Of a stretch of 33,096 nucleotides of DNA, positions 6,615 to 33,096 are shown in pieces. The stretch lies in contig JAESQX010000032.1 in NCBI GenBank assembly GCA_016764875.1, positions 1-33,096 on the forward strand. The letters are read 5' to 3'. The DNA is from Gammaproteobacteria bacterium (GTDB lineage Bacteria; Pseudomonadota; Gammaproteobacteria; Pseudomonadales; Pseudohongiellaceae). The position numbers and the translations under genes were made by a program. The notes beneath the pieces are model-generated. The model saw only the letters and a list, made by a program, of their open reading frames with translations. It was not told the origin of the DNA and did no database searches. Position 1 is the stretch's first letter; each line of letters begins with the position of its first letter.

Positions 6615-7880
6615 TTAGTTGGTGACAGACTCAAGTTTCTCAGGTGCCACTAACCACTCGCGTCCTTTCAACATGGCATGCCAGTATATATCCGGTAGAA
6701 TTTTTGATTTCAGTAGCCACGCCATACGGGTCGGTTTATTGCCTTGTAAAAGCCATTTGGGGAAAGTTGGCAACAGTTTGCCGCCGTAGCCAAACTCCGC
6801 TAGTACAATCTTGCCCCGCTCCACGGTAAGTGGGCAGGAACCATAGCCGTTATAGCCACAGCTGGGCTGTTGCTTATTGAATACATCGATGATGTTCTGG
6901 GCAACTACGGGAACCTGCACGCGTACCGCTGCCATGGTTTTCGCATTGGGCGTGTTCATCACGTCACCCAGCCCCCAGATATTGTTGAACTGTTTGTGAC
7001 GCAGGGTGTACTGGTCAACATCCAGCCAGCCACCGGCATCCGCCAGGGCACTGTGCTTGACGAAATCTGGTGCGCACTGCGGTGGGCAGACATGAATCAT
7101 GTCGAATTCTTCTTCGGTGATCTGCTCTTCGCCGGCCGCGTTGGTTGATTTGAAATAGGCTTTTTTATTTTCACCGTCAATCTTGAACAGGGTGCTACTG
7201 AAGTGGACATCTACCTGGTATTTTTCTATATAGGACTGTAGCGCTGGAACGTACTCTGCCACGCCGAACAATACCCCTCCGGCATTGTGAAACTCTACAT
7301 CTATGTCCTTTAGCGCCCCTGTTTTCGCCCAGTGGTCTGATGACAGGTACATGGCTTTCTGAGGTGCTCCGGCACATTTGATGGGCATGGGGGGCTGGGT
7401 AAACAGAGCCTTGCCCTTTTTCAATTGTTGCACCAGTTTCCAGGTATAAGGTGCCAGGTCGTAGCGATAGTTCGATGTCACTCCATTTTTGCCAAGGGTT
7501 TCAGGCAGACCTTCAATCTGTGCCCAATCCAGTTTCAGGCCAGGTGCCACGATCATCTGCTGGTAATAAATATCACCTCCGCCGGTGAGCTGAACTTTGT
7601 TCTGTTGCGGATTAAATCCCGTTACTGCTTCCTGTATCCAGGTCGCTTTTGCTGGTATCAGTTTGGCTGATTCGCGTCGAGTTGCACTGGCATCAAACAC
7701 TCCTCCGCCCACCATGGTCCAGCCGGGTTGGTAGAAATGTTCCTTGGCCGGATCGATGATGGCTATTTTTAGTAATTTATTGCGCTTTAACAGGCTATTG
7801 GCTGCAGAGATACCGCCAGCGCCAGCGCCTACAATTACAACGTCGAATTTAGGGATTTCGGATATGGAATTATTTTGCAT
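6615..7880 (-). CDS. sqr: Sulfide:quinone oxidoreductase (type II-like flavoprotein)
   Basis: FDVVIVGAGAGGISAANSLL; YQPGWTMVGGG; KCAGAPQKAMYLSSDHW and YNGYGSCPLTVERGKIVLAEF resemble the two redox-Cys motifs of type II SQR; C-terminal GLGDVMNTPNAKT. Confidence 0.9.
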   Translation of the reverse strand: MQNNSISEIPKFDVVIVGAGAGGISAANSLLKRNKLLKIAIIDPAKEHFYQPGWTMVGGGVFDASATRRESAKLIPAKATWIQEAVTGFNPQQNKVQLTGGGDIYYQQMIVAPGLKLDWAQIEGLPETLGKNGVTSNYRYDLAPYTWKLVQQLKKGKALFTQPPMPIKCAGAPQKAMYLSSDHWAKTGALKDIDVEFHNAGGVLFGVAEYVPALQSYIEKYQVDVHFSSTLFKIDGENKKAYFKSTNAAGEEQITEEEFDMIHVCPPQCAPDFVKHSALADAGGWLDVDQYTLRHKQFNNIWGLGDVMNTPNAKTMAAVRVQVPVVAQNIIDVFNKQQPSCGYNGYGSCPLTVERGKIVLAEFGYGGKLLPTFPKWLLQGNKPTRMAWLLKSKILPDIYWHAMLKGREWLVAPEKLESVTN

Positions 7881-7926: not shown

Positions 7927-7944
7927 TTGCAGGGAGTGTGCCAA
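7927..7944 (-). promoter_or_regulatory. Sigma-54 (-24/-12) promoter of sqr
   Basis: Minus strand TTGGCACACTCCCTGCAA: GG-N10-GC spacing, close to TGGCAC-N5-TTGCA; 47 bp upstream of the sqr ATG and divergent from a sigma-54 activator gene. Confidence 0.8.
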
Positions 7945-8068
7945 TCTTTGGAATAGTGGTTATCCCGTTGATATCACTAAAGATAATATAATGTGAAAAA
8001 GATTTTGAGTAGCCGCGCATTGACTTTCAGTGATTTTATTGTCATTTTCGTCAGGATTATTGTTAATA

Positions 8069-8443
8069 ATGGCAGCGACTATGGAAGTTATCAAAACTGA
8101 TCGTCACACGTTACCAATGGCACTCTCAAACATGCTGGAAGGATACGACTGTCCAGCCATTTTGGTGTCTATGGATTACGAGATACTCGCCACCAATAGC
8201 CTGTACCAGGACACTTTTGGTGAAATAGATATTCAGGCAGAACGACGCTGTTTCGAGGTTTCCCACGGTTACAAGGTGCCGTGCGATCAGGCCGGAGAGG
8301 ACTGTCCTCTGAGCGCGGTACGTAAGTCCGGCAATCGGGAGCGAGTGCTACACGTGCATCAGACCCCGCGGGGGAAAGAGCATGTAGATGTAGAAATGTT
8401 GCCAATCAATGGCGAAGCAGGAAACCTGGCCTTCTTTGTGTAA
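8069..8443 (+). CDS. FisR-like regulator, N-terminal PAS-like sensor part (ends at an in-frame TAA)
   Basis: PAILVSMDYEILATNSLYQDTFG (PAS-like), RRCFEVSHGYKVPCDQAGEDCPL Cys triad. Same frame as the downstream AAA+ ORF, interrupted only by TAA 8441-8443. Confidence 0.75.
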   Translation: MAATMEVIKTDRHTLPMALSNMLEGYDCPAILVSMDYEILATNSLYQDTFGEIDIQAERRCFEVSHGYKVPCDQAGEDCPLSAVRKSGNRERVLHVHQTPRGKEHVDVEMLPINGEAGNLAFFV

Positions 8444-8455
8444 CTACTGAGGCCA

Positions 8456-9454
8456 GTGCCTCTGGCCAGTGGCCTGGTGAATGAAAAGGAATTTGTTGGT
8501 AACAGCGCGGCCTTTAACAAGATGCTCGGCAGGGTTGCCAGGGTTGGCTCCACCGATGCTTCGGTATTGTTGCTGGGAGAATCCGGTACCGGCAAGGAAT
8601 TAGCCGCCCGGGCCATTCATCTGGCCAGTAAAAGGAAAGACAAACTGCTGGTTACCCTGGAGTGCGCGGGTCTCACCGAAGCGCTGTTTGAAAGTGAATT
8701 GTTTGGTCATGTTAAAGGAGCCTTTACCGGGGCCCAGTCCAACAAAAAGGGGCTGGTGGAACTTGCCGATGGCGGTACTTTATTCCTCGACGAAATCGGC
8801 GACATTCCGCAATCAATGCAGGTCAAACTGCTGCGCTTACTGGAAAGCGGCACCTTTCGCCGGGTTGGCAGTGCCGAGGTTCAAAGTGCAGACTTTCGCC
8901 TGATTTGTGCTACCCACAAGAACCTGGCACAAATGGTAGAAGAAGGTAGCTTCAGAGTGGATCTTTTCTACCGTATTAACGTGTTCCCCATTCACCTGCC
9001 CTCCCTTGAGCAGCGTAAGGAAGATATTCCCCTGTTGGTGGAAACTCTGCTGGCCAGGATGACCCCCGGGAAAGAATATCAACTCACCGAATCCGCCATG
9101 CAACTGCTGATGAAGCTGCAATACCGGGGAAACATAAGGGAATTACGCAACTTGCTGAACCGGGCCCTGGTGTTTGCAGACACCAATATGATTGACCAGG
9201 CCGTGCTGGAAGAGTGCCTGGAAGGTGAAATTGTCGTTCACAGCGAAGTGCCAGATGAAGCTCCGGCTCCCCGGATGGAGGAAAACACACAAGCTGGCTC
9301 AAATGGGCAGAGGCCCTGGGCGGACCTCAAGACTAACGAGCTGAATTACCTCAATGCGTTGCTGCAAGCCAATGGCAATGACAAGGCGAAAGCCGCGAAG
9401 GTAGCGGGAATTAGTGTGCGTTCTTTGTATCGTAAACTGGAAGAATTGAAATAA
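8456..9454 (+). CDS. Sigma-54-dependent AAA+ activator with Fis-type HTH (continuation of the FisR-like ORF)
   Basis: [18 protein letters not shown] (Walker A), [15 protein letters not shown] (GAFTGA loop), [13 protein letters not shown] (Walker B), C-terminal [23 protein letters not shown]. Confidence 0.93.
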
Positions 9455-32748: not shown

Positions 32749-32928
32749 GTCTTTAGTCAGGAACCGTCCGGGAACAAGTCGAATTACGTGTCTTAGCTTT
32801 GGTCAGTAACGTCAATATAATTGACAACTATGACAAATTACACAAGTGATACTGATTTAGAGCTATTGCACTATTCCGGGTTTGATAATAAATACTATAA
32901 AAACAAAGCGTTACAAATTCTAAAAAAC

Positions 32929-32944
32929 TGGCATGGCTTATGCA
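32929..32944 (+). promoter_or_regulatory. Sigma-54-like box
   Basis: TGGCATGGCTTATGCA: GG-N10-GC spacing, two mismatches to TGGCACRN4TTGCW. Confidence 0.4.
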
Positions 32945-33015
32945 ATACATATGGAGAGATTTGAATATAGTGGGCAATTGACAGTATTTTTGATTTATGG
33001 AAGGTGACAATTATT

Positions 33016-33057
33016 CGGGGGCCTGTTCCATATTGAATTCCGGGCCCCCGTTTTTTT
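33016..33057 (+). terminator. Strong intrinsic terminator in a 5' leader (attenuator or sRNA terminator)
   Basis: CGGGGGCC-(19 nt)-GGCCCCCG followed directly by TTTTTTT; ends 20 nt before ATG 33077. Confidence 0.85.
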
Positions 33058-33076
33058 AAATTTAGAGGAGCAGACT

Positions 33077-33096
33077 ATGACACACATCAAGAGCAT
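33077..33096 (+). CDS. Start of a truncated CDS (MTHIKS...)
   Basis: AGAGGAG ribosome-binding site 7 nt upstream of ATG; runs off the window edge. Confidence 0.5.

Follow-up and report, generated by a model that had tools for sequence, protein, structure and literature searches.

The closest described systems are the FisR-sigma-54 regulons for the oxidation of sulfide. In the FisR of Cupriavidus, Cys53 and Cys64 form a tetrasulfide link (PMC9495516), and the fisR of Acinetobacter baumannii lies back to back with a predicted sigma-54 promoter of the pdo/sqr genes (PMC7315123). The DNA analysed here is a stretch of 33,096 nucleotides (the window), which is the whole of contig C222 in a 2.75-Mb genome of 248 contigs. 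Its end probably carries a FisR/sigma-54 promoter of a small sulfide-response membrane protein, to which a terminator, most likely an unregulated one, has been added in this lineage only. The switch is very probably thrown by the sulfide-sensing activator FisR. The conserved part of the locus is not the striking terminator. The features concerned are the following:

32821 to 32836, plus strand: candidate FisR enhancer (UAS) TTGACAACTATGACAA, one mismatch from TTGTCA-N4-TGACAA
32929 to 32944, plus strand: sigma-54 -24/-12 promoter TGGCATGGCTTATGCA, its TGGCA and TGC unchanged across 22 loci, this one included; rpoN is in the genome
32955 to 33076, plus strand: predicted 5' leader of the small-protein mRNA, its +1 placed by standard sigma-54 spacing
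33016 to 33057, plus strand: intrinsic terminator CGGGGGCC...GGCCCCCG followed by U7, -21.4 kcal/mol, lineage-specific and identical in both assembled copies
33064 to 33070, plus strand: Shine-Dalgarno sequence AGAGGAG, 6 nt before the ATG, of the same type as in relatives
33077 to 33096, plus strand: start of a 29-aa single-TM protein (ATG 33077), the ORF continuing on contig C86 (L002, L003, L035)

The window closes with 267 bases (32830-33096) that are found again, at 99% identity and with three SNPs (32909, 32977 and 33007), where contig C86 of this genome ends, a sign of strain variation in the assembly. All three SNPs lie outside the box, the hairpin, the Shine-Dalgarno sequence and the 20 coding bases in the window; the palindrome at 32821-32836 lies only partly inside the overlap. 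In a reading frame ahead of the small ORF, the SNP at 33007 converts TGA to TGG. The preliminary description had an 'edge gene' here, and its ATG at 33077 and ribosome-binding site are confirmed. Read on through C86, however, this is no mere fragment but a complete ORF of 29 residues (MTHIKSMVFMMLVPLVTLFICWVVWINLI-stop), encoding a single-helix membrane protein whose N-terminus probably lies inside.

A sigma-54-like box at 32929-32944 had also been proposed, with a start near 32955, and both proposals have held up well. In a pattern scan of the window, TGGCAYG-N5-TGCW is matched exactly at this box and nowhere else, and TGGCATGGCTTATGCA shows the -24/-12 arrangement GG-N10-GC with TGGCAC/T...TGC. 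The whole genome holds seven matches (six loci plus the overlap copy) vs one for a reversed control pattern. Two of the other exact boxes precede glnK-amtB-like and nirB-like genes, as identified from their sequences; glnK-amtB and nirB are textbook sigma-54 targets. The genome also encodes RpoN (PF04552, E=7e-72). Among relatives, the box TGGCA[CT][GA]-N5-TGC precedes the ATG in all 21 intact loci examined, at a distance of 64-137 nt; the window's own distance is 148 nt, giving a range of 64-148 nt over all 22 loci. Transcription is predicted to start at about 32955, 12 nt past the -12 GC, so that an RNA running to the terminator would measure about 103 nt.

Upstream of the box lies a palindrome related to TTGTCA-N4-TGACAA, a motif derived in the present analysis from relatives and put forward as a candidate FisR site. 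Of 21 relatives, 18 have it upstream of the box with up to two mismatches, as against 0.28 expected in shuffles, and mostly at 101-152 bp. The window's copy, TTGACAACTATGACAA, sits 108 bp upstream of the box, within the 100-150 bp looked for in an enhancer. It is the window's sole site with no more than one mismatch (expected 0.1 per window and 0.001 locally).

Selection on the small ORF is evident: pS exceeds pN in every one of 231 pairs and dN/dS is about 0.1 in close pairs, which argues that the ORF is translated and selected. Profile searches (E up to 0.01, a few matches being weak) place homologues in 39 of 137 genomes of the same bacterial family, and no convincing homologue was seen outside the family among 295 genomes of the order. 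One 14-residue match in another family of the order (E=0.009) was set aside as unconvincing. Pfam has no matching model for 23 members (E up to 1), one irrelevant weak hit aside; nor has NCBIfam for the two members compared with it, and a phage search gave no match. Scanning a sequence collection with alignment A2 returned six named relatives and one probable chance hit (Methylorubrum). The six are uncultured Gammaproteobacteria/Pseudomonadales MAGs, e.g. UBA5078, SI074_bin35 and MH-Pat-SR, from environments that we take to be marine or symbiotic, partly on the strength of isolate names.

Two kinds of locus carry this ORF, one with a sigma-54 box before it and one, in a different neighbourhood, without (paralogues such as MIHVRHLVFLM...). 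The boxed ORF is usually divergent from fisR, a gene for a PAS-AAA+-Fis activator, and heads sulfide-oxidation genes: a Blh-like persulfide dioxygenase of the MBL type, a sulfurtransferase-SQR fusion and a SulP transporter. After the small ORF, five genomes have CydA and CydB at the front of the operon. In four genomes, the present one among them (G012, G067, G074 and G000), the ORF lies away from fisR with box and palindrome kept. In the window's genome it is detached from the sulfide genes, and on C86 is followed instead by genes for a His/Met-rich secreted protein and an alpha/beta hydrolase. Another genus, g2, has a divergent 33-aa homologue, MMKVKNMFLLMM...FPNPMM, after the fisR-divergent box in three genomes (L169, L171, L175). 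The small proteins would form an undescribed family, conserved at the start of sulfide-detoxification operons. They probably assist a membrane step, be it docking of SQR or bd oxidase or export of a sulfur anion.

Other arrangements were also seen. Many of the unboxed paralogues (L114-L127, L129-L133) have an upstream palindrome resembling GTGTCGC-n-GCGACAC, and they share a conserved neighbourhood of their own (clusters c0, c4, c5, c8 and c7). In genus g4/g7 (L179, L182, L185, L188) a peroxiredoxin-like gene directly follows the fisR-divergent box with no small ORF, and cydA comes next where the locus reaches far enough (L179, L182, L188).

FisR is a sigma-54 activator that senses persulfide, and proteins of its type were found in 53 of the 137 family genomes. 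They occur in every genome with a boxed ORF (23/23) vs one of the 11 whose only copies are unboxed paralogues (Fisher p = 8e-8, with no correction for kinship). All N-terminal domains checked carry three sensor cysteines at spacings of 11 and 7; the first of these spacings, 11 residues, is also that of Cys53 and Cys64 in Cupriavidus FisR (PMC9495516). Together with the conserved box and palindrome and the presence of rpoN, the co-occurrence with FisR gives strong support to the promoter half of the preliminary description. The window has a fisR of its own, far from the small ORF:

6615 to 7880, minus strand: sulfide:quinone oxidoreductase-like gene (sqr), divergent from fisR; it matches the type III SQR model NF049943 at E=3.5e-56, below the model cut-off
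7928 to 7943, minus strand: sigma-54-like box TGGCACACTCCCTGCA upstream of sqr, one mismatch to the strict pattern
8069 to 9454, plus strand: fisR homologue (PAS with C-x10-C-x6-C, AAA+, Fis HTH), the likely trans-activator, with an in-frame TAA at 8441-8443

The box before sqr and a weak UAS-like palindrome (8039-8054, three mismatches) between sqr and fisR point to sqr as a second target, suggesting that it is the other likely gene under FisR/sigma-54 control in this genome. The window's fisR encodes the AAA+ domain, the Fis HTH and all three sensor cysteines but is interrupted by the TAA, which falls between the cysteine sensor and the AAA+ domain; relatives read through at this point. The codon could reflect the assembly or a variant strain, the gene could be lost, or an activator lacking its sensor could remain. 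Because of it, activation in the present organism could be lost or altered, unless the TAA is an assembly or strain artefact, and it is the main caveat for regulation there.

The course of events that we consider probable can be set out as follows. Sulfane sulfur would cross-link the cysteines of FisR, which would then bind the enhancer-like site at 32821-32836 and activate RNA polymerase-sigma-54 at 32929-32944. Transcription would begin near 32955, yielding a transcript for the 29-aa one-helix inner-membrane protein, which in relatives stands first in operons that serve to oxidise sulfide (sqr, persulfide dioxygenase) and to respire in its presence by a sulfide-resistant route (cydAB). A strong intrinsic terminator would have arisen between promoter and ORF in the present lineage alone, ending a fraction of the transcripts and so lowering small-protein output without being regulated.

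The terminator reported before ATG 33077 and its ribosome-binding site is real, with the stability and U7 tract listed above. A standard terminator scan passes over it because its loop is long. When hairpins were defined by a T-rich tail and a stem of 7 or more with no fewer than 6 GC pairs, it was the only one on either strand of the window, and first-order Markov shuffles gave none. Conservation of the hairpin had been named as a point on which the preliminary description would stand or fall, and here it failed: the leaders of 21 intact relatives and of the three more divergent g2 homologues contain no GC hairpin with a U-tract. Leader sequence and structure are neither conserved nor alignable across genera, in a set of relatives that contains no second species of the same genus, and a DNA search with the leader in 57 relatives gave short, chance-level matches only. 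A loose small 'uORF', with an ATG near 32998 and no Shine-Dalgarno sequence, runs through the hairpin. Most likely the terminator acts in this lineage as a partial, unregulated damper of small-protein output, a role that would be minor.

Nevertheless, a terminator as strong as this (-21.4 kcal/mol, U7) could silence the small ORF almost wholly, and an alternative is that it is a silencing change in a lineage that is losing the system, with fisR stopped and the ORF separated from its operon. The in-frame TAA and the restriction of the terminator to this lineage are in keeping with such a loss, as is the lack of a close orthologue of the operon's dioxygenase (best 34% identity). The box, palindrome, Shine-Dalgarno sequence and ORF are nonetheless intact and carry none of the three SNPs (the palindrome being only partly in the overlap), and sqr persists with a box of its own. 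We regard loss of the system as unlikely.

Conditional attenuation, the first of two roles originally suggested for the leader, would have a ligand, a protein or translation set read-through via a terminator/antiterminator switch (stem TATGGAA/TTCCATA, 32997-33036 region). The terminator does precede the ribosome-binding site, a competing hairpin of -9.5 kcal/mol would occupy its 5' arm and could form before its 3' arm is made, and in the predicted fold the U-tract can pair with the Shine-Dalgarno sequence. However, 20-25% of shuffled leaders have a competing fold as stable (p about 0.25), so that the antiterminator is no better than chance; Rfam covariance models gave no hit in the leader at E up to 1; and a reading of the leader sequence found no ORF with a Shine-Dalgarno sequence and no regulatory codon run. 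With leader and hairpin absent in relatives as well, a switch of this kind is quite unlikely.

The second suggested role makes a sigma-54-driven sRNA of about 103 nt (32955-33057) the main product, the ORF being fed by read-through or from its own start. Promoter and terminator do frame such an RNA, and there is precedent among sigma-54-dependent sRNAs, namely GlmY and the Qrr RNAs, but relatives conserve the ORF and neither the leader sequence nor the terminator, Rfam is silent and an ORF with a perfect Shine-Dalgarno sequence follows directly; we judge it improbable. Absence of the terminator in relatives, a chance-level antiterminator and the lack of an Rfam match thus leave the conditional-leader/sRNA half of the original reading unsupported, whereas its sigma-54 half has strong support. 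Equally improbable is a combined reading, in which the 29-33 aa family is a dedicated FisR-controlled component of sulfide detoxification and the leader terminator of this lineage is in addition conditional on sulfide or redox state. A GlrR/GlmY-type sRNA was dropped, since the conserved item is the ORF and the adjoining regulator is FisR-like.

On the preferred reading, a FisR/sigma-54 promoter with a lineage-only, unregulated terminator, a gene that lacks annotation and is too small to be picked up by usual gene calling becomes tied to a defined stress response, that to sulfide/persulfide, and the bacterial family is given a testable enhancer motif for FisR. Should the small protein indeed help SQR or bd oxidase to work under sulfide, a widespread detoxification pathway would gain a membrane partner that has so far been missing.

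Three known systems invite comparison. The GlmY and Qrr sRNAs share with the present locus a sigma-54 promoter followed about 100 nt later by a terminator, but here no RNA is conserved and the conserved product is a protein. The small subunits of cytochrome bd (CydX, CydS and DUF2474-type) are likewise tiny single-helix proteins, and ours adjoins cydAB in five relatives; unlike them, it has no Pfam match to such families, precedes cydAB and is often found without it. The resemblance to the FisR-sigma-54 regulon of Cupriavidus pinatubonensis and Acinetobacter baumannii extends to the divergence of the relatives' fisR from a sigma-54 promoter of pdo/sqr genes and to a cysteine-bearing sensor domain with the spacing of Cupriavidus FisR. 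In contrast to that regulon, the target in the present genome lies a long way from fisR and its leader contains a terminator, a defined TTGTCA-N4-TGACAA palindrome stands before the promoter, cydAB or sulP is added in some genomes, and the first gene encodes a membrane protein of 29-33 aa.
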